Origin: an uncultured Hoeflea sp.
Lineage (GTDB): Bacteria; Pseudomonadota; Alphaproteobacteria; Rhizobiales; Rhizobiaceae
Assembly (NCBI RefSeq): GCF_947501405.1
Contig: NZ_CANMVK010000003.1
Location: forward strand, 124,001 to 188,000
Direction of reading: 5' to 3'
Length of the DNA stretch: 64,000 nt
Made by a program: the position numbers and the translations under genes. The notes below the pieces were generated by a model, which was not told the DNA's origin, made no database searches, and worked only from the letters and a program-made list of their open reading frames with translations. Numbering within the stretch: the first letter of the stretch is position 1; the number at the start of each line of letters is the position of its first letter. Below, piece by piece: positions 1,767-16,076 of the stretch.

Positions 1767-2221
1767 TTGGTTTCCTCAACGGGGCCGGTCGCTGAACGTC
1801 CTGCTCTGGATCACAAGCAGCGATGTGCGTCTATCGGACGAGGCCGGAAAAAGTTGCCGGGCCGCCGGATGCAACGGCGAACAAACGACGCGATCATCGT
1901 TGATCTACATCCCGGAAATCGCGGTGACGTTCCGTTCGCACGGATTGCCATCCACTTTATGCTGGCCAATCCTGTTCATGGCGGTCGTATTCGCCATCAT
2001 GCCCTCATCCGCGAGGGCCAGCATCAGATGATCATCGATGCGGAAACCTGGGACAAGGCGCAACTTGATTTCAAGGTAGGCAAGGCCCGCTAAGGCGGCA
2101 ATTTGGGCGGTGGCTCAAGCTTCCCTTTCCGGAAGCCGAGCTGGTGGATGTGATCAAGAATGGTTTGACCGCGAGCCACTCCAACAAGAACAGCAAGCGC
2201 CACTTGTACCGCAAATTCTAA
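1767..2221 (+). pseudogene. Serine recombinase remnant (Recombinase domain), frameshifted
   Basis: From about 1925 the frame reads DVPFARIAIHFMLANPVHGG and goes on through GQHQMIIDAETWDKAQ, matching the Recombinase domain (PF07508) pattern of large serine recombinases, where GxPFxRGxIyxLLxNPxYxGxIxH is followed by GxHxxIIDxxxWxxVQ. That frame stops near 2093. The continuation is in another frame from 2114 to a TAA at 2221 and reads DVIKNGLTASHSNKNSKRHL, like the family stretch before the YRYYVS segment. The N-terminal catalytic resolvase domain (with its serine) is not visible upstream. This is therefore a truncated, frameshifted relic. It lies on the left flank of the arc/V-ATPase block and is a sign of past site-specific integration. 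Confidence 0.72.
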
Positions 2222-2507: not shown

Positions 2508-3914
2508 ATGAAGCTGAAATTCCCCAGTGCCTATACAATACTCTTCGCGCTTATCGCCTTCGTCGCCATCGCGACCCATTTCGTACCAGCCGGCCATTAT
2601 GAGCGTGTCAGCAACGAAGAACTGGGCCGAGACGTTCCGGTGCCCGGCACCTATCAAGTTGTCGAATCCAATCCACAGGGTTTCTTCGATGTCGTAATGG
2701 CTCCGATTGCCGGATTTTATGACCCGGGCAGTTATGAAGCCCGCGCAATCGACGTTGCCCTGTTTGTTCTCATCATTGGCGGTTTTTTGGGGATTGTAAC
2801 CAAAACCGGTGCGATTGATGCGGGCATTGCCCGCGCGATGGTGCGTCTTGAGGGGCATGAAAAGTGGATGATCCCGATTCTGATGGCGCTGTTTGCCGCA
2901 GGCGGAACGATCTACGGAATGGCCGAGGAGTCGCTGGCGTTCTACGCACTCATCATTCCGGTGATGATCGCTGCGCGCTATGACGCGCTGACGGGTGTGG
3001 CAATTATCATGCTTGGCGCCGGCGTGGGGACGCTGGGCTCGACTATCAATCCCTTTGCCACGGTCATCGCCTCGAACGCTGCAGGCGTGCCGTTTACCGA
3101 TGGTATCGTTCTGCGCTTCATCCTGTTGTTCGCGTGTTGGCTTGCCTGCGTGATTTACGTCATGCGCTATGCGGAACGCGTCAGGGCGGACCCCGAGAAG
3201 TCGATTGTAGCTGACCGCCGTGAAAGCAATGCGGCGCATTTTCTCAAAGGTCGGGCCGAGGGAGACGGAGTGCCTGATTTCACCACAAAGCACGGCATTA
3301 TCCTAATCATCTTCGCAGCCAGCTTTGCTGCGATGATCTGGGGCGTTTCAGTCGCTGGATGGTGGATGGCGGAGATGTCGGCGTTGTTCATCGTCGCCTC
3401 ACTTGTGGTCGGCGTAATCGACTGGATGGGCGAAGAGGAATTCACATCCACCTTCGTTGACGGAGCCCGTGATCTTCTTGGTGTTGCCCTGGTGATCGGT
3501 ATTGCCCGCGGTATCGTTGTGGTGATGGATGCCGGCAACATGACCGATACCATCCTGTTCTGGGCCGAAGGCGCTGTCAGTGGTCTGGGCGAGATTGCCT
3601 TCATCAACACCATGTTCGGGTTGCAGGCAGGATTGTCTTTCCTTGTGCCGTCCTCTTCTGGCCTGGCGGTTCTGACAATGCCGATTATGGCGCCGTTGGG
3701 CGATTTTTCGGGCGTGGATCGGTCATTGATTGTGACAGCGTATCAATCCGCCAGCGGCTTGGTGAACCTTATCAACCCGACTTTTGCTGTTGTGATGGGC
3801 GGGCTTGCCTTGGGCCGTGTTCCCTATGAGCGATGGCTGAAGTTCATGGCGCCGCTCATGCTGATCTTGATTGTGATCATCATGGCCGGGCTCAGCATCG
3901 CGACGGTTCTGTAG
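2508..3914 (+). CDS. YfcC/ArcD-family basic amino acid antiporter
   Basis: A 468-residue polytopic membrane protein of the YfcC/DcuC-like superfamily, to which the streptococcal arginine/ornithine antiporter ArcD belongs. Visible family features are the N-terminal helix followed by VPAGHYER, the segment with GGFLGIVTKTGAIDAGI, the loop GGTIYGMAEESLAFY, and the re-entrant-like GTLGSTINPFATVIASNAAG and LSFLVPSSSGLAVLTMPIMAPL stretches. About a dozen hydrophobic segments are present. It starts after a strong GAAGGAG and is first in the operon, 3-9 bases before a second amino acid permease and ahead of arcA. I infer arginine uptake in exchange for ornithine. A citrulline or dicarboxylate substrate cannot be excluded. 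Confidence 0.83.
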   Translation: MKLKFPSAYTILFALIAFVAIATHFVPAGHYERVSNEELGRDVPVPGTYQVVESNPQGFFDVVMAPIAGFYDPGSYEARAIDVALFVLIIGGFLGIVTKTGAIDAGIARAMVRLEGHEKWMIPILMALFAAGGTIYGMAEESLAFYALIIPVMIAARYDALTGVAIIMLGAGVGTLGSTINPFATVIASNAAGVPFTDGIVLRFILLFACWLACVIYVMRYAERVRADPEKSIVADRRESNAAHFLKGRAEGDGVPDFTTKHGIILIIFAASFAAMIWGVSVAGWWMAEMSALFIVASLVVGVIDWMGEEEFTSTFVDGARDLLGVALVIGIARGIVVVMDAGNMTDTILFWAEGAVSGLGEIAFINTMFGLQAGLSFLVPSSSGLAVLTMPIMAPLGDFSGVDRSLIVTAYQSASGLVNLINPTFAVVMGGLALGRVPYERWLKFMAPLMLILIVIIMAGLSIATVL

Positions 3915-3923
3915 ACCGTGGCC

Positions 3924-5276
3924 ATGGCTGACACCACCAGTGCGTCGCGAACCAGCGGCAAGGCCGCTCTTGGCTTGTGGATGTGTACGGCCCTTGTTGT
4001 GGGCAACATGATCGGTTCGGGCATATTTCTGCTGCCCTCGTCGCTTGCGGCCTTCGGGCCGATTTCCCTGGTCGGTTGGGTTGTGACCGCAGGTGGTGCC
4101 ATTGCGCTCGCCCTGATCTTCGGCAGGCTTGCTGCGTTGACGCCAAAAACAGGCGGGCCCTATGCTTATGCGCGCGAGGGATTTGGTGATTTCGCAGGCT
4201 TCTTGATCGCCTGGGGCTACTGGATTGCCCTGTGGTCGGGCAATGCGGCGGTTGCGGTCGCCTTTGCCGGATATCTCAGTTTTCTGGTGCCGTTCATTGG
4301 CGGCAGCCAGATTGCCGGGCTTGTGGCAGCGCTTGGTGCAATATGGCTGCTCACCTGGATGAACATTCGTGGTGTCCAAGAGGCCGGAGTGATCCAACTT
4401 GTCACAACGGTGATGAAGCTTGTCCCGATCCTGCTCCTGATCGTGTTCGGCGTGGCCTATATCGACACGGCCAACTTCACCCCCGTCAATGTCAGCGGCC
4501 AATCCACCATATCCGCGATTTCCGCCTGTGCGGCACTGACGCTCTGGGCCTTCATAGGCCTGGAATCCGCCACGGTCCCGGCCGGGGATGTGGTGGACCC
4601 CGAACGCACCATTCCGCGCGCAACGATCATCGGCACATGTCTGGCCGCCGCCGTCTACATCGGTGTGACCGTTGTTGCGCTGGGTGTGATGCCGTCAGCG
4701 GAGTTGGCGGGCACAAACGCCCCGCTGGCTTTGGTGGCTGGTGTCATGTGGGGCGCCGGCGGAGCTACTTTTATCGCGATCGGCGCCTGCATCTCGACCT
4801 TTGGCACGTTGAACGGGTTTACTATGCTGACCGGCCAGGTCCCGCTGGGTGCTGCGCGCGATGGCATTTTTCCCGAGCCCTTCGCCCGGTTGTCAAAGAC
4901 CGGAACGCCTGCATTCGGACTGGTCGTTTCAAACGTTTTGGCCAGCGGTTTGATAATGATGAACTACTCCGAAAGCCTGTCGGAGCAGTTTGAGTTCATC
5001 ATCCTTCTGGCAACGCTTTCGACATTGATCCCCTATTTGGTGTGCTCTTTGTCTGAGCTGATGATCAGCGTGGCGACGGGGCGGGAAATCGCCACCAATC
5101 AATCCCTCAAAGTTGCCACACTTGCCAGTGTAGGCTTCGTGTATTCCATTTGGGCCATCTACGGCGCAGGCCGCGATGTCGTGTTCTGGGGTTTCTTGCT
5201 GCTGATGACGGGATTGCCGATTTACGTCTGGCTGCGGTGGCAGGCCAGCAAATCAACCTCCGGGGAGACGTTTTAG
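3924..5276 (+). CDS. APC-family amino acid permease (AdiC/ArcD-like)
   Basis: A roughly 450-residue permease of the amino acid-polyamine-organocation family. The first helix carries [15 protein letters not shown], the substrate-backbone-binding GSGIF motif of AdiC/PotE-type antiporters, and TM6 carries [19 protein letters not shown], where AdiC-type carriers have the WSFIGxE motif. About 12 membrane segments are visible. The ATG at 3924 is preferred; an in-frame GTG at 3918 is possible, and neither has a strong ribosome site, suggesting translational coupling with the upstream permease that stops at 3914. Placed directly before arcA, it probably exchanges arginine for ornithine, agmatine or citrulline. 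Having two unrelated antiporter types in one arginine operon is unusual. Confidence 0.83.
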
Positions 5277-5277
5277 C

Positions 5278-6507
5278 ATGACTGGATTTGGAGCCCACTC
5301 GGAAATCGGAAAACTTCGCAAAGTGATGGTCTGCCAGCCGGGGCTGGCACATGCGCGACTAACCCCCGCGAACGCTGCAGAGCTTCTTTATGATGACGTT
5401 CTATGGGTCCATCAGGCGCGCACAGACCATGCTGATTTTCGCATGAAGATGGAAGAACGCGGCGTGGAGGTTTTGGAATTTCATGCCTTGCTTATGGAGA
5501 CCGTCAAAGACGCGGAGGCGCGCAAGTGGATTCTTGATCGGCGGATCACCGAAAACCAGGTCGGCGTTGGCATGCTGGACGAGTTGCGTGGCTGGATGAA
5601 CGAAATGCCCGACGAGGATTTGGCTGTTCATCTGATCGGCGGCATCACTGTACCGGACTTGCCGTTCAAGCCATCGGGAATGTTTGGCGGGTATCTGGGA
5701 AATTCCGGTTTCGTCATCCCTCCCATCCCGAACACGCAATTCACGCGTGACAACAGCTGCTGGATTTACGGTGGCGTTACCGTGAACCCCATGTACTGGC
5801 CTGCGCGACGGCCCGAAACGCTGCTGGTGACGGCGATCTACAAGTTCCACCCGGCTTTCAGGGACGGTGATTTTGAAATCTGGTGGGGTGACCCGGACGA
5901 AGACCACGGCCCCGCGACCGTTGAGGGAGGGGATGTCATGCCCTGGGGCAATGGCACGGTTCTGATCGGCATGGGCGAACGCACCAGTCCGCAAGCGGTG
6001 GGCCAGGTCGCCAAGGCGCTCTTTGCCAAAGGGGCCGCAGAACGTGTGGTCGCATGCCAAATGCCACGCAGCCGCGCCGCGATGCATCTGGACACGGTGT
6101 TTAGCCATTGTGACCGCGAGACGGCTACAGCCTTTGTTGAGGTGTGTGATGAGATCAAATGCATCAGCCTGTACCCCGGCGACAAAGAAGCAACGCTCGA
6201 TTTCCATGAGGAAAAAGATCACCTGTTCAAAGTCGCGGCCGACTGTCTGGGCATCAAAAAGCTCAACATCGTCCAGACCGGTGGCGACGCGTTCAATCAG
6301 GAACGTGAACAATGGGACGACGGCAACAATGTGGTGGCTTTGGAGCCCGGCGTTGTGGTGGCCTATGATCGCAACACCTACACCAATACGCTGCTGCGCA
6401 AGGCCGGCGTTGAGGTGATCACCATCCCAGGGTCTGAGCTGGGCCGTGGACGTGGCGGGGGTCATTGCATGACCTGCCCGATTTGGCGTGATCCGGTCGA
6501 TTATTGA
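5278..6507 (+). CDS. arcA: Arginine deiminase
   Basis: This enzyme hydrolyses L-arginine to L-citrulline and ammonia in the cytoplasm, the first step of the arginine deiminase pathway. At 409 residues it has normal length. All catalytic positions of the guanidino-group-modifying fold can be seen: FTRD (Asp158), EGGD (Glu216), MHLDTVF (His270 and Asp272) and the [13 protein letters not shown] loop with nucleophile Cys397. A GGGGAG ribosome site lies 8 bases before the ATG, which follows the permease stop by one base. It is followed by arcB-type and arcC genes, so the full pathway is encoded. Use for energy under oxygen limitation or acid defence is inferred from the pathway. Confidence 0.96.
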
Positions 6508-6522
6508 GAGGGAGAAAAGGAC

Positions 6523-7524
6523 ATGGCGTTTAACTTGAAAGGCCGCAGCTTCCTGAAACTGCTGGACTTCGACCAGCGCGAATTGCGCTATCTTCTTGAC
6601 CTGTCTCGGGACCTCAAACGTGCGAAATATGCCGGGTCGGAAATACAGCATCTGAAGGGCAAGAACATCTGCCTGATTTTTGAGAAGACCTCGACCCGGA
6701 CCATGTGTGCATTTGAAGTGGCCGCCATGGATCAGGGGGCTGGGGTTACCTATCTGGGGCCATCGGGTTCCCAGATAGGCCACAAGGAAAGCATGAAGGA
6801 TACGGCGCGCGTGCTTGGCCGCATGTATGACGCCATCGAATATCGCGGCTTTGGTCAGGATCTGGTGCAGACGTTGTCTGACAACGCGGGTGTCCCGGTT
6901 TACAATGGCCTCACAGACGAATTTCATCCCACTCAGATGCTGGCTGATTTGCTGACCATGCAGGAGTATGGCGAAAAGCCCCTGCACGACATCAAATACG
7001 CTTATGTTGGTGATGGGCGCTCCAATATGGGTCATTCACTGATGATAGCGGGCTGCATGATGGGCATGGACGTGCGCATCGCCTCACCCAAAGCACTCTG
7101 GCCAGCGGATGAGTTCCGCGGACCTGCGGAAGAAGCTGCCGCCAAGTACGGGGCCACCCTGACAATCACCGAGGATCCTATAGAGGCTGTTGACGGTGTC
7201 GATTTCATCCACACCGATGTTTGGGTGTCGATGGGTGAGGCCAAAGAGGTGTGGGAAAGCCGGATCAAACAGCTGAAACCCTATCAGGTGAACAGCAGGC
7301 TGATGGCAGCCGCGAACAACCCGAATGTCAAATTCATGCACTGCCTGCCCGCGTTCCATAACACCGAAACCGTGGTCGGGCAGGATATCTTTGACAAGTT
7401 CGGCATCACCGAAATGGAAGTGACCGAAGAGGTGTTTGAGGGACCCGCAGCCATTCAGTTTGAACAAGCCGAAAACCGGATGCACACGATCAAAGCCATT
7501 CTTGTCGCCACATTGGGGGTCTGA
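6523..7524 (+). CDS. arcB: Ornithine carbamoyltransferase, catabolic type
   Basis: A 333-residue ornithine carbamoyltransferase that, in this setting, should run citrulline phosphorolysis to ornithine and carbamoyl phosphate. The carbamoyl-phosphate site STRT (residues 57-60, in [15 protein letters not shown]), the HPTQ motif ([12 protein letters not shown]) and the ornithine-side HCLPAFH motif are all present. Length and the conserved segments resemble the catabolic/E. coli ArgF group. It starts 15 bases after arcA behind GAGAGGGAGAAAAGG. Its position between arcA and arcC argues for the catabolic role; a separate anabolic argF is expected elsewhere in the genome but cannot be seen here. Confidence 0.94.
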
Positions 7525-7527
7525 GCG

Positions 7528-8457
7528 ATGCGCATTGTCACAGCCCTTGGCGGCAATGCCTTGCTGCGACGCGGGCAAGCACTGACGGCTGAAAACCAAC
7601 GCGAAAACACCGCTATCGCGGCCGAGGCTCTTGCTCGGATTGCTGTGGATCACCAGCTCATTGTGACCCATGGCAATGGGCCGCAGGTGGGTTTGCTGGC
7701 TTTGCAGGGCAACGCCTACAAGCCTGATGAAGCCTATCCGCTGGATGTGCTCGGGGCGGAGACCGAGGGTATGATCGGTTACATGATCGAGCAGGAACTG
7801 GGCAACCGCTTGCCGAAAGAAACGCCACTCGCAACGCTGCTCACCATGATTGAAGTTGACGCGAAGGATCCGGCCTTTGCCGATCCGACCAAGTTCATCG
7901 GCCCGGTCTATGAAAAGGCCGAAGCAGAACGGTTGGCCGCGGAAAAAGGCTGGGAGATCAGGGCCGATGGCGACAAGTGGCGGCAGGTTGTGGCATCCCC
8001 GTTGCCACAGCGCATCTTTCAAATCAGGCCGATCAAATGGCTGGTCGAAAAGCAGACAGTGGTTATTTGCGCCGGCGGCGGCGGTATCCCCACGGTCTAT
8101 GATGCGGACGGCAATCTGGAAGGGATTGAGGCCGTGATCGACAAGGATCTGGCCTCCGAGCTTCTGGCCCGCGATACGGATGCAGACCTGTTCATATCAG
8201 CGACAGACGCGGAATGCGTCTATCTTGACTGGGGCACCGACAAACAGCGCGGCATCAAATCAGCGACGCCGGACGCCATGGACCAGTTTGAGTTCGCCGC
8301 CGGGTCAATGGGGCCGAAGGTTGATGCAGCCTGCCAGTTTGCGCGCCGCACCGGCAAGAAGGCCGCTATTGGCGCATTGGCTGATTTGAAGGACATCGTT
8401 GCGGGTCGCAAAGGCACGACAATCAGTCCGGACGCGGGCAACACGGTGTTTCATTGA
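7528..8457 (+). CDS. arcC: Carbamate kinase
   Basis: The 309-residue protein makes ATP from carbamoyl phosphate and ADP, releasing CO2 and ammonia. It has the amino acid kinase fold signatures: ALGGNALL at the N-terminus, THGNGPQVG near residue 50, [11 protein letters not shown] with the following VIDKD, and the [10 protein letters not shown] strand with the Asp typical of carbamate kinases. Length is standard. It begins 3 bases after the arcB stop and is followed after 24 bases by the V-ATPase B-subunit gene on the same strand. It is therefore the ATP-producing step that directly precedes an ATP-driven ion pump in one transcription unit. Confidence 0.95.
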
Positions 8458-8481
8458 CGTACGGACCAGGGGACGCAGGAT

Positions 8482-9843
8482 ATGACACGTGATCTGATCA
8501 AATACTCCCGCGTGCTGGAAATCGTCGGCGACACGCTCAAGGTTCATGTACCCGAAAATGCTGGCAAGAACACAGTTGTCCGATTTGGCGATCTGGCCGT
8601 GGTTGAAAGTGTTGATGGCGCAACATCTCTGGCACAGGTGATCAACATCAACCGCGATGTCGTCTCGCTTCAGGTATTCTCCGGAACGAAGGGCATATCG
8701 ACCGGCGCGACTGCGACTTTTCTTGGCCACCCAATGCAGACACCTTACTCCGGCAACATTCTGGGACGTGTGTTTGATGGCGCAGGCACGCCGATTGACG
8801 GCGGCCCCGATGTTTCGTCCGAGCCGCGCTACAATATCGGTGGCCCATCTGTGAACCCGTCCGAGCGGACGGTTCCCAGGAAGATGATCCGCACGGATGT
8901 GCCGATGATCGATATCTTCAACTGCCTGGTTGAGAGTCAGAAAATCCCGATTTTCTCGGTCTCGGGCGAGCCGTTCAACCCGTTCCTTGCACGCATAGGC
9001 ATTCAGGCCGATGCAGATATCGTCGTCTTCGGAGGCATGGGTCTGATCTTTGATGACTACTACATCTTCCGGCAATCATTTGAGGATGCAGGGGTGTTCT
9101 CGCGCACCATCATGTTCGTCAACCAAGCCTCCGACCCGTTGGTGGAACGCTTGCTTGTGCCTGACATGGCATTGGCGGTGGCCGAGAAATTTGCGGTCGA
9201 GGAAGGCAAACGTGTGCTGGTCCTGCTTACTGACATGACCGCCTATGCCGACGCGATGAAGGAGGTCGGGATCAGTCAGGAGCGCGTGCCCTCAAACCGG
9301 GGTTACATGGGCGATCTGTATAGCCAGCTCGCACGTCGCTACGAAAAGGCATGCGACTATGCCAAGGGCGGCTCGGTCACCATTTTATCCGTGACAACCA
9401 TGCCCGGCAACGACGTCACTCATCCGGTGCCCGACAACACGGGATACATCACAGAGGGCCAGTTTTACCTGCATTCCGGCGTGATCGATCCGTTTGGCAG
9501 TCTCTCGCGGCTCAAGCAAAATGTCATTGGCAAGGTCACGCGCGAGGATCACAGCCAGATCATGAACACGATGATCAGGTTCTATTCGGAAGCACGCGAC
9601 GCTGCCCAGAAACAGGCCATGGCATTTGAGTTGTCCGACTATGACATGCAGGTGCTGAAATTCGGGGAGCTGTTCCGGAAACGCTTCATGGATATCAACG
9701 TCTCGATCCCGTTGGAGGAGGCTTTGGACCTTTGTTGGACAACACTTGCCGAGTGCTTTGAACCAGAGCAGCTATTGATGAAGCAGAACCTGGTCGACAC
9801 CTATTTCCCGAAAGGCAGTGATGGCGCGGTTGCAGCTGAATAA
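8482..9843 (+). CDS. ntpB: V/A-type ATPase subunit B
   Basis: A 453-residue non-catalytic nucleotide-binding subunit of a V/A-type rotary ATPase. Typical stretches are [35 protein letters not shown] in place of a canonical P-loop (as expected for subunit B), [19 protein letters not shown], and [16 protein letters not shown]. The arginine-finger region reads [20 protein letters not shown]. Three B subunits should alternate with A in the V1 head. It lies 24 bases after arcC and overlaps the D-subunit gene by 23 bases. Being first in the ATPase block is unusual, since related operons put E, C and A before B. Confidence 0.95.
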
Positions 9844-10417
9844 ATCCTCGCTTGCCCGTGAAATGGGGCAGCTCAAGACCTATCAGAGGTTCTTGCCGTC
9901 TCTGGATCTGAAGCGGCAGCAGCTGATGGCTGAGAAGGCCAAAGCCGTCGCGGCGGTTGCTGAGATGGAGGAAAAGGTCACGGAACTGGCAGCACAGGTC
10001 GGGCGTGATGTGCCGATGCTGGGGAACGCGAGTATTGATCTGGACGGGTTGGTGCGCCTGACTGATTTCCAGATTGGCATCGAAAATGTCGTTGGAACGA
10101 AACTGCCGATCCTGGAGAAGATGGACGTCGAGGTGCGACCGTACTCACCCATGGCCAAACCCCACTGGGTCGATGATGTCGCGCGTCTCTTGCATGACAT
10201 GCTTGAAGCCCGGTTGCGGGTTCAGGTCGCGCGCCAGCGCGTCGAGGCACTGTCGAAGGCCGTTGATGTTATTACGCAGCGGCTGAATCTGTTCGACAAG
10301 GTGCTGATCCCCAATGCGCGCGCCAATATCAAGAGAATCAGGATTTATCTCAGCGATGCCGAAATGGCGTCGGTGGTTCGCTCGAAAATATCCAAACGCA
10401 AACGGGCTTCGGCATGA
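9821..10417 (+). CDS. ntpD: V/A-type ATPase subunit D
   Basis: A 198-residue central-stalk subunit D. The N-terminus ([20 protein letters not shown]) and the long charged helices at both ends form the antiparallel coiled coil that turns inside the A3B3 head; the C-terminal segment with [20 protein letters not shown] is also typical of the family. The ATG at 9821 follows AAAGG and lies inside the end of ntpB, so translation is probably coupled. A GTG three bases earlier is in frame but less likely. The following ntpI overlaps by four bases. No gene for the partner subunit F is visible in the operon. Confidence 0.92.
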
Positions 10418-12207
10418 GTGTCGCGAAACTCAAAAAGCTGTCGCTGGTCGGACGCATAGCGGAAAAGGATGGTGCATTGGCGCGGTTGCAGACGTTGGGC
10501 GCCATGCATCTGGTGCAATTGTCGCCGAAAGAGACGCACCCGGAAAAGATCGTGAGCCGTGAAGCCGAAGAGGCCTACAAAGCCCTGCATTTTCTGTCCG
10601 CCGTTCCCAAACCGCGGCGTCAGGTGCGAAGCGACCCTGCGTTCGATGTTCACGCATTCGTCAAGAAGATTCTTGCCCTAAGGGCAGACTTGCGTACCGC
10701 GCGTGACAAGCGGGACTTTCTGGTGCATCGCATCGCAACCCTTCGGCCATGGGGTGACTTTATCTTTCCGCCCAAGGAGGCGATGGCTGGGCTGCGGCTT
10801 TGGTTCTACCAACTGCCCCACAAACAGCGCGAGAGTCTGCTGACCGTGGAATTGCCCTGGCAGATCGTTGGGGAGGACCACCAGTTTGCCTATGTCGTTC
10901 TGATCGCAAAGGATGAACCGGCCCTAGATGTTCTGCCCGTGCCGCGGCGGCACACGGGTGACAAGCCGATCGAGGTGCTGGAGGTTGAGCTGGATGAAAC
11001 CGAGATCGAGATCGAAAGCCTGCAGGGCGACAGGATGGCCCAAACTCGGTTTTTGGGGCTCTTGCGCGCCAGCCTGTCAGAGGCAGAGACAGCCGCGGAA
11101 TTGTCTTTTGCCCAGACCCAGACGCTGGATGATGATGAATTGTTCGCCGTTCAGGGATGGGTGCCTGAAGACAGGATGACCGAGGTTGAACAGGCCTGCG
11201 ATGACCTTGGCCTGGCCGTGCTGATCGAAGATCCAGGCTGGGACGAGGTCCCGCCCACATTGCTCGAGCAGCCGGAGACCGAGGCTGCGGGCGTCGATCT
11301 GGCGATGTTCTATCAGGTGCCGCATTATCGCGGATGGGACCCGACACTGATGCTGATCGTGTCCTTTGCGATCTTCTTTGCCATGATCATCGCCGACGCG
11401 GGTTACGGCGTTGTCATCTTGTTGGGTCTGCTGGCGTTCTGGAAACGCCTTGGCGGTGATACCCACATGAAGGCCTGGCGGCGATTGGGTCTGATCCTCG
11501 CGGGCTGCACCATTGCCTACGGCGTTATTGTCGGCAGCTGTTTCGGCGCCGCGCCACCGGATGGGTCCTTGTTTTCTAGCTTGGCGATCCTCGACCTCAA
11601 CGATTTTGAGACGATGATGCAGATATCGATCATCGTCGGTGTCGCCCATATCGCATTCGCAAATTTCATGGCCTTCCGTGTCAATCACAAACGCAGCAGG
11701 CACGCCAATCTTGGATGGATTGCGGCCCTGTGCGGCGGTCTGTTGATCTGGCTCAGCGGGCAAATTGGGCACGTCTTCACGGCCGGGATCGCTCTGGCAA
11801 TTGGCGGATTGATCGCCATCGTTGCTTTCACCAGCGAACGCCCGGTCGCGAAGCCCTCGGACTGGGCTTGGCGCATCTTTGATGGCGTCAAACGCCTCAG
11901 CGGTCTGATGGGGGCCTTTGGCGACGTGCTGTCATATATGCGTCTTTTTGCGCTCGGACTGGCATCCGCATCGCTTGCGTTGACGTTCAATGATCTTGCG
12001 ACGGATGTGATGGCGTCGAAGTCGGGCCTCGGCATCCTTGGCGGGCTGCTGATCCTGCTGATCGGGCATGTGCTGAATTTCGGGTTGGGCTTGATGAGCG
12101 GTGTCGTGCATGGACTTAGGCTCAATTATATCGAATTCTTTAAATGGGGATTGCCGGAGGAAGGCGTTGCTTTCCGGGCATTTGCCCGCAAGGAGGTGCA
12201 GGAATGA
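10414..12207 (+). CDS. ntpI: V/A-type ATPase subunit I (a-subunit)
   Basis: A 597-residue membrane subunit that forms the stator half-channels. Residues 1 to about 300 are a hydrophilic, coiled-coil-rich cytoplasmic part; from about residue 305 several membrane helices follow, beginning with MLIVSFAIFFAMIIADAGYG, a family hallmark. The helix GDVLSYMRLFALGLASASLA carries the Arg expected to interact with the rotor carboxylate, equivalent in role to the essential arginine of yeast Vph1. The start overlaps the ntpD stop by four bases and the stop overlaps ntpK by four. Length is slightly below the roughly 650 residues of Enterococcus or Thermus subunit I. Confidence 0.94.
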   Translation: MSVAKLKKLSLVGRIAEKDGALARLQTLGAMHLVQLSPKETHPEKIVSREAEEAYKALHFLSAVPKPRRQVRSDPAFDVHAFVKKILALRADLRTARDKRDFLVHRIATLRPWGDFIFPPKEAMAGLRLWFYQLPHKQRESLLTVELPWQIVGEDHQFAYVVLIAKDEPALDVLPVPRRHTGDKPIEVLEVELDETEIEIESLQGDRMAQTRFLGLLRASLSEAETAAELSFAQTQTLDDDELFAVQGWVPEDRMTEVEQACDDLGLAVLIEDPGWDEVPPTLLEQPETEAAGVDLAMFYQVPHYRGWDPTLMLIVSFAIFFAMIIADAGYGVVILLGLLAFWKRLGGDTHMKAWRRLGLILAGCTIAYGVIVGSCFGAAPPDGSLFSSLAILDLNDFETMMQISIIVGVAHIAFANFMAFRVNHKRSRHANLGWIAALCGGLLIWLSGQIGHVFTAGIALAIGGLIAIVAFTSERPVAKPSDWAWRIFDGVKRLSGLMGAFGDVLSYMRLFALGLASASLALTFNDLATDVMASKSGLGILGGLLILLIGHVLNFGLGLMSGVVHGLRLNYIEFFKWGLPEEGVAFRAFARKEVQE

Positions 12208-12650
12208 CTGAGTTCGTAATCGCGTTGGGGTGGTTGGGAATATTCGCACCAATGGCCTTGGGGGCTGTGGCCAGTTCTATCGGTTGCTCGATCGCGGGAC
12301 AGGCCAGTATTGGTGCGATGCTGGAGACCGAAGGTGGCTATGGCCGGTTTGTCGGCATCTCGGCCTTTCCGTCTACATTTGTGATTTACGGTATTGTCAT
12401 CATGTTCACGCTGAACCGTGATGTAACAGCCCAGAATGCCGGCGGCCTGTTCGGTATCGGGCTACTGGCCGGAATTGCCTTGCTCTATTGCGGGATCTGG
12501 CAGGGCCGCGCCTGTGCAGCCGCAATCAACGCCTCAAAAGAAAAGCCTGAAATCTTCGGTCTGGCCTTGGCGCCCGCGGCGATTATCGAGGGTTTTGGCG
12601 TCTTTGCCTTTGTTTTCGCCCTGGTGGTCAGCGCGGGAATTCCGGCATGA
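12204..12650 (+). CDS. ntpK: V/A-type ATPase rotor subunit K
   Basis: A 148-residue, four-helix (two-hairpin) rotor-ring protein. The start is the ATG at 12204 in an ATGA overlap with ntpI, behind GGAGGTGCAGG. Only the second hairpin has the ion-binding carboxylate, Glu129 in PAAIIEGFGVF, as in Enterococcus hirae NtpK (Glu139). Gln100 in IWQGRA matches Gln110 of that protein, and Thr58 matches Thr64. The position of Gln65, another Na+ ligand, is Phe59 here. The substitution leaves the coupling ion open between Na+ and H+. The gene overlaps ntpE by four bases. Confidence 0.92.
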   Translation: MTEFVIALGWLGIFAPMALGAVASSIGCSIAGQASIGAMLETEGGYGRFVGISAFPSTFVIYGIVIMFTLNRDVTAQNAGGLFGIGLLAGIALLYCGIWQGRACAAAINASKEKPEIFGLALAPAAIIEGFGVFAFVFALVVSAGIPA

Positions 12651-13324
12651 ACGCGCCAGACCAGAATGCCCGCGGCGTTGATGCGCTGATCTCGCAGTTG
12701 CGGGCAGACGGTATCGCTGCCGGCAAGCAGGAAGCAGAGCGCATTGTGGCTGAGGCCAAGGCCGAGGCGGCAAAGGTGCTGGCAACGGCCAAGACCGATG
12801 CGGAAAAGGCGCTCAACGATGCACGCATCGCATCCGAACGCTACGAGAATGCGGGAAAGGAAGCACTCAGCACTGCGATGCGCGATGCCGTCCTGACGAT
12901 GAAGTCCACGTTGATGGCGCGCTTCGAGATCGACGTGCAGCGAATGGTGTCGCAAACCGTGGCCGACCCCGAGATGCTGAAACAGATGGTGCTGGAGCTT
13001 GTCGGTCGCGCCCGAGCGGATACTGGCGCCGGCGACGGGACAGAGGTCATCTTGCCCGCACAAGTCGTCGGTCCTGATGCAATTCGCGAAAATGCCGATG
13101 ACATTCAATCCGGCAAGCTGACCAAATTCGTCTTGGGCCTGAGCCAGAAAATGCTGGAAGACGGGGTTACGCTTCATGCGTCCGATGATCTTCAGGGCGG
13201 TATCAAAGCCAAACTTGCGAAAGACGACATCCTTCTCGATCTGTCTGATGAGGCGATTGCATCGCTTCTGATTCAGCATCTGCAGCCCCGTTTCCGCGCC
13301 GCACTGGAAGGTGTGATCCGGTAA
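12647..13324 (+). CDS. ntpE: V/A-type ATPase subunit E (peripheral stalk)
   Basis: A 225-residue peripheral-stalk protein. Residues about 8-75 are an Ala/Glu/Lys-rich helix (EAERIVAEAKAEAAKVLATA) that would form the stalk coiled coil, and the C-terminal half is the globular domain that binds the head, ending GGIKAKLAKDDILLDLSDEA before a final helix. It overlaps ntpK by four bases and is followed 4 bases later by the subunit C-like gene. No subunit G/H partner, which normally pairs with E, is encoded in the block; either it is elsewhere, or E self-pairs, or a short gene was missed. Confidence 0.85.
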   Translation: MNAPDQNARGVDALISQLRADGIAAGKQEAERIVAEAKAEAAKVLATAKTDAEKALNDARIASERYENAGKEALSTAMRDAVLTMKSTLMARFEIDVQRMVSQTVADPEMLKQMVLELVGRARADTGAGDGTEVILPAQVVGPDAIRENADDIQSGKLTKFVLGLSQKMLEDGVTLHASDDLQGGIKAKLAKDDILLDLSDEAIASLLIQHLQPRFRAALEGVIR

Positions 13325-13328
13325 GCTC

Positions 13329-14021
13329 ATGTCTGATCCCGATCTTTACACCGCGTTGGTCGCGAGCCTGCCCAGCTCAGAACGGCTGTTCTTTGCCAAG
13401 CAACCGCCTTTGTCTCGTCTGAGACTGAACAAACGGCTGGCAGCGCTCAGCAGCGACGACGCACGGACACTTGCCTTGGTGGAACGGCTTCTCAGCTGGG
13501 CCGAATATGGAATGGCCGATGACATCGGCGTCGTTATCGCGCGCACCAGAATCGCGTTGCGCGACATCGCGCAGCCGACACTCCGCGCGATTGTCAAAGA
13601 GCGGATGGAGCTACGTACAGCCATCGCCGCCCTACGCATGCGACAGCGCGGCGACAGTGCGCCAACGGGCATTTGGGGCTACGGGCGATGGACAAAACAC
13701 ATCGTAGGCAACTGGGCCGACCCAACGTTCCGGCTTGATGCATCAATGCCGTGGCTGCGTCAGGCTCAGGTGCTGATGGCGCGCAAAGACCCGCTGGAGT
13801 TGGAACGTCATATTCTTGATGTGACGTTCCAACAGCTACAACGGCACGCAGCCAGACATCAGTTCGATTTCGAAGCCGTTGTGATCTACGTGCTCAAATG
13901 GAACATCTTTGATCGCTGGGCACAGTCCAACAGCGAAGCCGCCGCGCGGCGTTTTTCTGATCTGTCGCTGGACGCCCTTCGCGATTTCCCTGATCTCATT
14001 CTGGAAGGAGGGGCGCAATGA
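13329..14021 (+). CDS. V-ATPase operon protein, DUF2764 type (subunit C-like)
   Basis: A 230-residue soluble, helical protein. The N-terminus, LYTALVASLPSSERLFF followed by PPLSRLRLNKRL, resembles the DUF2764 family (YYxLVASLP followed by PPxS), which sits between subunits E and A in V-ATPase operons of Chlamydiae, Bacteroidetes and spirochaetes. From that position I infer it replaces subunit C, the rotor socket on the membrane ring. It is flanked here by exactly the same neighbours, ntpE and ntpA, and overlaps ntpA by four bases. Family assignment is by eye from the N-terminal motif; the rest is too divergent for me to place. Confidence 0.68.
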   Translation: MSDPDLYTALVASLPSSERLFFAKQPPLSRLRLNKRLAALSSDDARTLALVERLLSWAEYGMADDIGVVIARTRIALRDIAQPTLRAIVKERMELRTAIAALRMRQRGDSAPTGIWGYGRWTKHIVGNWADPTFRLDASMPWLRQAQVLMARKDPLELERHILDVTFQQLQRHAARHQFDFEAVVIYVLKWNIFDRWAQSNSEAAARRFSDLSLDALRDFPDLILEGGAQ

Positions 14022-15847
14022 CCGCTTCATCGCCCGTCACAGCGCGAATCGTCGCTGTTCAAGATGACCTTGTTGAGATCGAATCTCTACCCGGGCCAGA
14101 CGGCACTCCGGGCCCGTTGGTCAAAAATGAGGTGGTCTACATCCTGCCCGGCCTTTTGGGTGCAAACGGTCGACAGGAGCGCCTGAAGGCCGAGGTATTG
14201 CGCGTGAGCGGCAACACCGCCGACGCACAGGTCTACGAAAGCACCCAAGGCGTCGCCGTTGGTGATCCTGTCGAACAGTCAGGGCAACTCCTGTCAGTGG
14301 AACTTGGCCCCGGTTTGCTCGGGCAGGTGTTTGACGGCTTGCAAGCGCCATTGGCAAAAGTCGCCAGCCAATACGGGATATTCCTGCCGCGCGGCGCGGA
14401 TGTGGAGCCCTTGGATGTGGCCGCCAAGTGGTCCTTCACGCCAAAGCTGAAAGTGGGTGATGTCGTCGGTGCTGGTGATGTGATTGGCACCGTTCCCGAG
14501 GGACGATTTGCGCACAAAATCATGGTGCCGTTCAATTGGACGGGCAAATACACCATCATCTGGATTCAGGAAGGGGCTGCCAGACTTCGCGATCCCGTTG
14601 CGCGGGTGTCTGACGAAGCAGGCAACGAGCAAACCATAACCCTGTCCCAGAAATGGCCCGTGCGACGACCCGTTTCGGGCGGTCTGCTGAAAAAGGCCGT
14701 TTCCCGGCGAACATTCCCGGATCAACCCGTTCTGACATCGCAGCGCTTGATCGACACGTTCTTCCCCATTGCGCGAGGCGGGACCGCCTGCATTCCGGGA
14801 CCATTTGGCGCGGGCAAGACCGTGCTGCAAAACCTGATTGCGCGAAATGCAAAAGTCGACATCGTGGTTGTTGTCGCCTGTGGCGAACGCGCGGGCGAGG
14901 TGGTTGAGACAATCAACGAATATCCGGAAATGACCGACCCCACATCAGGCGGCAGTCTGATGGATCGCACGATCATCATCTGCAACACCTCATCCATGCC
15001 TGTCGCGGCACGGGAGGCATCCATCTTTACCGGGATCACCTTGGGCGAATACTATCGCCAGATGGGCCTTGATGTCCTGTTGATCGCTGACAGCACCTCT
15101 CGCTGGGCGCAGGCCATGCGCGAAACCTCCGGGCGTCTTGAGGAAATCCCCGGCGAAGAAGGATTTCCCGCATACCTGGAAAGCTCGATCAAGGGGCTTT
15201 ACGAACGCGCCGGCGTCATCGAGACCAATGATGGCGACAAGGGCAGCCTGACAATGATTGGCACCGTGTCGCCCGCAGGCGGCAATTTCGATGAGCCCGT
15301 GACCCAATCAACCTTGTCAACGGTCAAATGTTTCCTCGGCCTGTCCTCCGAACGGGCCTACAAGCGTTTCTACCCGGCCGTCGACCCGCTGATGTCATGG
15401 TCCCGTTATCTGGATCAGATGTCAGATTGGTACGAAGACAACATGGAACCGGGCTGGATCGCCAAAGTTAAAGAGCTGCAAGGTGTGCTGGCCAAAGGAG
15501 AACAGGTCAGCCAGATGATGCAGGTTACGGGCGAAGAAGGCGTGACCGTGGAAGACTATATCATCCAGCAAAAAGCTCTGTTCATCGACATGATTTATCT
15601 GCAGCAGGACGCATTTGACGACGTGGATTCATGCGTGCCGCTGGACCGGCAAAGACTGACCTTTGGCATCATGTATGATGTTGTGTCCGGCGATCTGGGC
15701 ATGACATCGAAAGCAGAAATCCGGGCGCATTTCACAAAGCTCACAGGGCTGTTCAAGAACTTTCACTATGCGGCCGATGGCACGCCAGACTACGAAAAAC
15801 TCTTGAATTCCATCCACGATACGATCGCATCAAAGATCGAGGCATGA
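14018..15847 (+). CDS. ntpA: V/A-type ATPase catalytic subunit A
   Basis: The 609-residue catalytic subunit. It has the P-loop GPFGAGKT (residues 261-268, Lys267), where most relatives have GPFGSGKT, and the catalytic glutamate in [11 protein letters not shown]. The non-homologous region typical of subunit A lies between the N-terminal barrel and the P-loop (about 110-210). Further A-type segments are [32 protein letters not shown] and [10 protein letters not shown]. The gene is last in the operon, starting in a four-base overlap with the DUF2764-type gene. Related operons have A directly before B, but here B opens the ATPase block and A closes it. Confidence 0.96.
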
Positions 15848-15917: not shown

Positions 15918-15986
15918 CGCGGGAGCAAGGTCCGTATTGCGCTGATCCTGCCAAACGGCTTCTGAGACGCAATCGTTTTATGGAAA

Positions 15987-16076
15987 TGGCGGAGAGAGAG
16001 GGATTCGAACCCTCGAGACGGTTCCCCGCCTACACACTTTCCAGGCGTGCGCCTTCGACCACTCGGCCACCTCTCC
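15987..16076 (-). tRNA. tRNA-Ser (GGA)
   Basis: Read on the minus strand, the gene starts GGAGAGGTGGCCGAGTGG and ends with the acceptor arm CTCTCC, a G discriminator and an encoded CCA. The anticodon loop CTGGAAA gives anticodon GGA. The T arm GAGGGTTCGAATCCCTC and a long variable arm typical of serine tRNAs are present; total length 90 with CCA. The 3' end of the gene faces the arc/V-ATPase block, the usual orientation for islands that insert into tRNA 3' ends. Confidence 0.95.

Follow-up and report, generated by a model that had tools for sequence, protein, structure and literature searches.

An operon that encodes both a source of ATP and a rotary ATPase raises the question of whether the one supplies the other. 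Such an operon is found in an uncultured Hoeflea sp. (RefSeq assembly GCF_947501405.1), in a stretch of 64,000 nucleotides (nt) of contig NZ_CANMVK010000003.1 (positions 124,001 to 188,000, forward strand), which we call the window. It carries two permease genes, the arginine deiminase (ADI) pathway genes arcA, arcB and arcC, and seven genes of a vacuolar-type ATPase (V-ATPase). The first-pass annotation had read it as a unit in which arginine yields ATP and ATP yields an ion gradient, and our results support this reading in part. We hold it somewhat better than an even chance that a transferred operon couples the ADI pathway to a minimal V-ATPase acting as an ATP-driven ion exporter. Both halves are of known kinds; no description of the joined operon was found in literature searches of open-access papers, most subscription journals being outside their scope.

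The twelve open reading frames (ORFs) all lie on the plus strand and span 2508-15847 of the window, in the 5' to 3' order of Table 1. Their eleven junctions comprise gaps of 3, 1, 15, 3, 24 and 4 nt, four overlaps of 4 nt and one overlap of 23 nt. The first-pass annotation had described the same place and strand, a continuous run and gaps of at most 24 bases, all of which we found again; its phrase "mostly four-base overlaps" was overstated, as only 4 of the 11 junctions are of this type. The widest gap lies between arcC and the V-ATPase B gene, ntpB (8458-8481). A pattern scan, which is no proof of a single transcript, gave no terminator-like or promoter-like match in this gap; a separation of the two genes there is what the first-pass annotation had named as refuting its reading. 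From the layout and the absence of a terminator match, the run from the first permease to A is probably one transcript. The start of subunit K was placed by a mechanical ORF call at 12144; the ATG at 12204 is preferred, on the grounds of the relatives and of an AAGGAGG near 12191 that resembles a Shine-Dalgarno sequence.

The FNR/Anr box has the consensus TTGAT-N4-ATCAA. The box at 2451, upstream of the first permease, has two mismatches, and we do not claim FNR/Anr regulation. When the region upstream of the permease was inspected in three other operons, no FNR-like box was seen in L037 and L019, and a box with two mismatches was seen in L050.

The proteins were compared with Pfam and with NCBIfam, the latter for ten of the twelve (B and D were left out). 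Among these ten, ArcA, ArcB, ArcC, K and A passed at least one curated NCBIfam cut-off, and both permeases, I and E matched their families below the cut-offs. The genes arcA, arcB and arcC are all present together, and ArcA has the arginine deiminase Cys motif. The permeases have family-level matches only (the APC permease also scored 327 bits with the arginine/agmatine antiporter family, cut-off 574), and their substrates would be basic amino acids, that is, arginine/ornithine or citrulline. YfcC belongs to the family of ArcE. Electroneutral exchange has been demonstrated for ArcD1 and ArcE of other bacteria (PMC5300872). Elsewhere in the host genome there are two more, weaker PF02274 genes (C1:819786-820832 and C2:803707-804360).

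We propose the following mechanism. The two antiporters would take arginine in and release ornithine (or citrulline) at no energetic cost, and ArcA, ArcB and ArcC would break arginine down to ornithine, ammonia and CO2 with a yield of one ATP, no redox reaction being involved. The V-ATPase (A, B, D, E, I and K with the protein that we call subunit X) would hydrolyze this ATP and export ions, H+ being likelier than Na+, and a cell that does not respire would thereby keep its membrane potential and internal pH. We infer both the energetic coupling of arginine-derived ATP to the V-ATPase and its physiological trigger, which may be anoxia or acid.

Subunit K, from which the direction of the V-ATPase may be read, can be aligned with NtpK of Enterococcus hirae. 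ATP-driven pumps such as this one typically have a single carboxylate for every two hairpins, which makes their ion/ATP ratio lower. We surveyed 75 K subunits, that is, the one in the window and those of 74 other loci. In all 75, the second hairpin holds the equivalent of E139 (Glu129 in the window), the first-hairpin carboxylate site is Ser and so offers no carboxylate, and the equivalent of Q110 is Gln. This single carboxylate per two hairpins supports ATP-driven ion export, and the first-pass claim of a rotary pump that spends ATP on it gains from this pump-type K subunit. The site of Q65 is Phe in 26, Met in 25, Gln in 18 and another residue in 6 of the K subunits, the window having Phe. 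The NtpK ligand set L61, T64, Q65, Q110 and E139 becomes F, T, F, Q and E in the window, and the full Na+ set is therefore incomplete. Because L61 binds via its main chain, the telling loss is that of Q65. Since the Q65 equivalent is missing in the window, the evidence leans to H+ over Na+ as the pumped ion without settling the choice.

The V-ATPase looks intact but minimal, of the seven-subunit type with a DUF2764-like protein. The core subunits A, B, D, I, K and E were all identified, E by its fold and a sub-threshold sequence match. The A subunit has the P-loop GPFGAGKT and the I subunit the conserved Arg segment SYMRLFALGLA. The AlphaFold model of E (mean predicted local distance difference test score, pLDDT, 71.6; predicted template modeling score 0.41) had V-ATPase E chains as its top PDB matches, the best being yeast V-ATPase E (4dl0, E 6.5e-05). 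Subunit C (AC39, PF01992) and subunit F (PF01990) gave no Pfam match across the whole host genome; in 14 control genomes, PF01992 matched in 7 and PF01990 in 6. Subunit X, which adjoins E within the seven-gene cluster and scores just under its Pfam cut-off, had no NCBIfam match. Its AlphaFold-type model is all-helical and confident (pLDDT 83.8) and had no PDB match with E <=0.001. Because a confident model found no such match, the idea that X stands in for subunit C is neither supported nor refuted by the modeling; X may replace C, F or G. The order B-D-I-K-E-X-A was identical in all 69 loci in which the seven genes were recovered as ORFs.

The adjacency of arcC and ntpB, which would have spoken against the first-pass reading if confined to this strain, extends beyond it. 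We collected 80 loci with close A subunits from species genomes, out of at least 548, and added the plasmid records L018 and L019, giving 82 loci. An arc gene lies in the flank of 16 of them, counting L035 with its arcC remnant. B was recovered with at least 2 kb of upstream sequence in 65 loci, and in 12 of these the gene immediately before it, on the same strand, is arcC; the record names of the 12 belong to Rhodobacteraceae, Rhodovibrionaceae, Kiloniellales and gammaproteobacteria. In ten of the 12 the spacing is -11 to 210 nt, and in L070 and L062 it is 719 and 1767 nt. The arcC gene overlaps B in three loci: the overlap is 4 nt long in L030 and 11 nt long in both L018 and L032, the latter two being strains of one species, Tateyamaria omphalii; L018 has arcC beside B and no arcA or arcB nearby. 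In the host's order, G024 shows the same run from YfcC to X, up to the end of its contig. Two Ruegeria loci, L037 and L050, have the arc operon downstream of A, and Qingshengfaniella (L019) carries it in divergent orientation to the V-ATPase. The Rhodobacteraceae metagenome-assembled genome (MAG) 200-G has two V-ATPase clusters, L029 and L035, with A subunits 93% and 78% identical to that of the window; one has arcABC and the other only the arcC remnant.

We also asked how often the two systems lie together in genomes that have both. ADI was searched for in 50 of the 79 genomes behind the loci, a choice that included every arc-linked locus; the 29 omitted have no arc gene in the flanks. A strong ADI match (E 1e-50) occurred in 24 of the 50, and in 13 of these 24 no more than about 12 kb separates the arc genes from the V-ATPase, as against about 0.13 expected under random placement (L070 was counted among the 13 by matching contig coordinates). 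Because the chosen genomes hold every arc-linked locus, 13/24 is biased upward and 24/50 overstates the rate of ADI. The loci, moreover, are related by descent, so that the P of 7e-24 obtained from these counts cannot be taken as a true probability. In the host's order, PF01813 (E 0.001) matched in 12 and ADI (E 1e-50) in 33 of 249 genomes, and both occurred in 4, as against 1.6 expected. The two are adjacent in the host (G000) and in G024, on different large contigs in G099 and on two small contigs in G072. L058, a Hyphomicrobiales MAG with this V-ATPase, belongs to the same order, and its ADI coordinates are as in G072. In the host's class, the B subunit (E 1e-120) was found in 5 of 385 genomes, the host among them; one of the other four holders (G498) has an arcC match about 0.7 kb upstream of B, the upstream flank covered being only 1.5 kb in all four.

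The sequences of the linked genes suggest a shared history. In 14 hand-picked linked copies (L018, L029, L035 and L070 were left out), the distances of B correlate with those of arcC (r 0.91), arcB (r 0.89), A (r 0.87, from 13 copies) and arcA (r 0.50). That is, arcB and arcC have diverged in step with the V-ATPase. Since the r of arcA with B is only 0.50, arcA may have been exchanged or replaced in some lineages. In L062, L064, L068 and L069, arcA is 61-66% identical to the window and arcB/arcC 72-81% (arcB 80-81%), and no APC permease was matched within the fetched flank. We built a quick tree of 72 B subunits, 14 of whose rows bear the arc-adjacent label. The label must change 8 times on it, starred branches forcing no fewer than 4 of these changes, and label shuffles gave a mean of 13.0 changes, none of 500 being as low as 8; only 17 of the 69 inner branches of this tree are starred, and near-copies inflate the clustering. 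The V-ATPase of L034, on a contig labeled Saprospiraceae (Bacteroidota), groups among alphaproteobacterial ones, which indicates either transfer or MAG contamination.

As for its origin, the operon looks like a horizontally acquired cassette in a tRNA-associated island, foreign to the host. The A subunit occurs in only 1 of 18 genus genomes, that of the host, the 17 others being without it. The closest arc and V-ATPase proteins found are those of L028, a Rhodobacteraceae MAG that covers eleven of the genes (all except YfcC) at 86-98% identity. Because the host is in another order, this identity suggests that the arc and V-ATPase genes moved together. The operon adjoins the 3' end of tRNA-Ser (15987-16076). 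The right flank of genus relatives aligns from 15979-15987 of the window in 11 of 12, and from 15986 or 15987 in ten; the fragmented relative G306 gave short flank matches only, and L127, L128 and L129 match at the tRNA side only. The operon had no match in the left flanks of five genus relatives. The G+C content is about 0.52-0.60 to the left of the tRNA versus 0.59-0.66 to its right. No repeat of the tRNA 3' end that could serve as an att site was found in the 56 kb upstream (exact, at least 15 nt, or with 3-4 substitutions in 20-30 nt), and among the upstream ORFs scanned, which were not all of them, we saw a recombinase fragment and no intact integrase. The relatives G309 and G299 match the host up to about 102.85 kb of C3, 37 kb to the left of the tRNA. 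Because HSP70, DnaJ and OMP-decarboxylase family genes lie between that point and the tRNA, only the right edge of the acquired segment is firm.

Table 1. Features of the arc/V-ATPase operon and its borders (window coordinates; scores and cut-offs in bits).
Feature	Position	Strand	Evidence
Large-serine-recombinase-like fragment (Recombinase domain), upstream of operon	1767..2093	+	Pfam PF07508 E 0.00097, 19.8 bits, cut-off 21.1
YfcC/ArcE-like basic amino acid antiporter (DcuC Pfam family), putative	2508..3914	+	PF03606 E 1.5e-122; NCBIfam YfcC 297.6, cut-off 500
APC-type basic amino acid/polyamine antiporter (ArcD/AdiC-like), putative	3918..5276	+	PF13520 E 5.2e-55; TIGR00905 359, cut-off 409
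arcA, arginine deiminase	5278..6507	+	PF02274 E 1.4e-129; TIGR01078 490.1, cut-off 489.1
arcB, ornithine carbamoyltransferase	6523..7524	+	TIGR00658 415, cut-off 281
arcC, carbamate kinase	7528..8457	+	TIGR00746 388, cut-off 358
V-ATPase subunit B	8482..9843	+	PF00006 and PF22919
V-ATPase subunit D (central stalk)	9821..10417, alternative GTG start 9818	+	PF01813 E 4.8e-34
V-ATPase subunit I (a)	10414..12207	+	PF01496 E 4.1e-13; NCBIfam subunit I family E 4.4e-67, below cut-off
V-ATPase subunit K (c), two hairpins, single carboxylate Glu129	12204..12650	+	NF007200 171, cut-off 108; E. hirae NtpK 2bl2 alignment E 4e-06
V-ATPase subunit E (peripheral stalk)	12647..13324	+	NF002424 E 3.4e-21, NF002170 E 6.1e-18, both below cut-off; AlphaFold model fold match
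Subunit X, DUF2764-like, all-helical	13329..14021	+	PF10962 E 7.1e-05, 23.0 bits, cut-off 24.1
V-ATPase subunit A, catalytic	14018..15847	+	NF003220 748, cut-off 470; A-type ATPase subunit A 1vdz E 2e-140
tRNA-Ser(GGA)	15987..16076	-	ARAGORN; 3' end = right edge of acquired segment

As a rule, a reversible F-type enzyme connects substrate-level ATP with ion gradients, and the host has an F-type gamma subunit and the zeta inhibitor. The F-type enzyme of Paracoccus denitrificans shows negligible ATP hydrolysis whether or not zeta is present (PMC5795051). A host F-type enzyme with zeta, taken together with such negligible hydrolysis, would leave room for a separate pump, and a need of the host for a second pump is plausible.

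Several points weigh against the coupling of arginine to the V-ATPase. No arc gene lies in the flank of 66 of the 82 loci (some flanks are short), and 26 of the 50 chosen V-ATPase genomes are without ADI at E 1e-50. These counts mean that a V-ATPase of this kind also works without arginine or arc genes and does not depend on arginine. The placement of the arc genes varies among the loci, being upstream, downstream, divergent or reduced to arcC alone. The parallel divergence was seen without an unlinked arc control, and shared species history gives such correlations too. A conserved FNR-like box upstream of B was not found, at most one mismatch being present in 3 of 69 regions. The argument for a separate pump is weakened because zeta may not inhibit in Rhizobiales; in Sinorhizobium, zeta cannot exert homologous inhibition on its own enzyme (PMC10469736). 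Finally, the V-ATPase of Bacteroides fragilis, which is of the DUF2764 type, has been suggested to use a Na+ gradient for making ATP (PMC10197588).

The alternative that survives best is that the arc operon and the V-ATPase are both accessory stress modules of plasmids and islands, inherited together for shared habitats and not energetically coupled. Both modules are found on plasmids, and in the host beside a tRNA, and their order and orientation vary among relatives. The greater divergence of arcA than of arcB/arcC in L062, L064, L068 and L069, with its low correlation with B, likewise suggests that parts were exchanged. Against this, arcC overlaps B at three loci, and arcB and arcC diverge in step with B, both of which suggest a long-lived common transcription unit; once both modules are expressed, moreover, some coupling through the common ATP pool would be difficult to escape. 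We think this alternative unlikely, though it deserves serious attention.

Alternatively, the V-ATPase might make ATP from a Na+ or H+ gradient, as has been proposed for the B. fragilis enzyme, and arginine and the gradient would be parallel sources of ATP. The Gln at the Q110 site in every K subunit, and at the Q65 site in 18 of the 75, makes Na+ possible, above all in some relatives. However, the single carboxylate per two hairpins in all K subunits and the Phe at the Q65 site of the window argue against a synthase, as does the F-type gamma subunit that the host possesses in any case (gamma being the F-type subunit that we searched for). We regard this as improbable. Still less probable is an acid-resistance unit, in which ammonia from the ADI pathway and H+ export defend the cytoplasmic pH and anoxic energy conservation is secondary: the ADI pathway does yield ammonia, the APC permease has its sub-threshold match to the arginine/agmatine antiporter family, and for a methanotroph of acid soil it has been proposed that a V-ATPase pumps protons (PMC6119699).

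The operon resembles several known systems. It shares with arcDABC and arcABCE operons a single run of arcA, arcB, arcC and putative exchanger-type permease genes, and differs in that the run continues into a V-ATPase cluster. It also has both an ArcE-like and an ArcD-like permease, a combination reported for only 3 of 124 clusters, all in Lactobacillales (PMC5300872). From the E. hirae NtpK-type Na+ V-ATPase, whose K subunit is homologous and whose Glu139, Gln110 and Thr64 have equivalents in the window, it differs in the Phe at the Q65 and L61 equivalents and in that no C or F gene was found in the host genome. Minimal V-ATPases of the DUF2764 type occur also in Chlamydia and spirochaetes, and their usual gene order is E-X-A-B-D-I-K, of which B-D-I-K-E-X-A in the window is a permutation. 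The minimal V-ATPase of Bacteroides likewise has seven genes, a DUF2764-like gene beside E and a duplicated K, and the host genome is without a match to C or F; the differences lie in the gene order, in the arc genes in front and in X being just below the Pfam cut-off. Mutants of the Bacteroides V-ATPase were nearly lost in deoxycholate, and its function was called unknown (PMC10197588). Tn6097 of Paracoccus is, like this cassette, a mobile arc operon (arcABCD) in Alphaproteobacteria, with no ATPase described, "ATPase" and "ATP synthase" having 0 occurrences in the main text (PMC3281130). In Clostridium sticklandii both systems are present and, in the available part of the source, are not described as joined in an operon.

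Other ATP-making genes may also accompany this V-ATPase. When the neighbors of the V-ATPase in L018 were used as tblastn queries against the 82 loci (L018 included), acetate kinase matched in 4, enoyl-CoA hydratase/Pta in 2, FabI-like in 5 and DUF3141 in 2; in Pfam, DUF3141 lies directly after A in L035, and L059 has an acetate kinase domain. FabI-like, DUF3141, Pta-like or acetate kinase genes were seen near the V-ATPase in L018 (5469-10529), L035, L037, L050 and L059, and they could be a second ATP-making partner, a lead for which there is no background rate. Of 20 neighbor genes scanned in other loci, most were unrelated.

In its widest form, one mobile operon would combine fuel uptake, substrate-level ATP and a dedicated rotary pump, and arginine alone would let a respiring bacterium with a barely reversible ATP synthase maintain its membrane potential. 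The arc half might be one of several interchangeable ATP-making modules on this V-ATPase clade. We put this forward tentatively, at somewhat less than an even chance. If true, nature would offer a clean experiment in energy coupling, in the form of a mobile operon that supplies the source of ATP together with a pump working in one direction. The joined operon could explain why a sparse set of Alphaproteobacteria has a second rotary ATPase, and it makes the role of the DUF2764-type V-ATPase testable with a single substrate, arginine.

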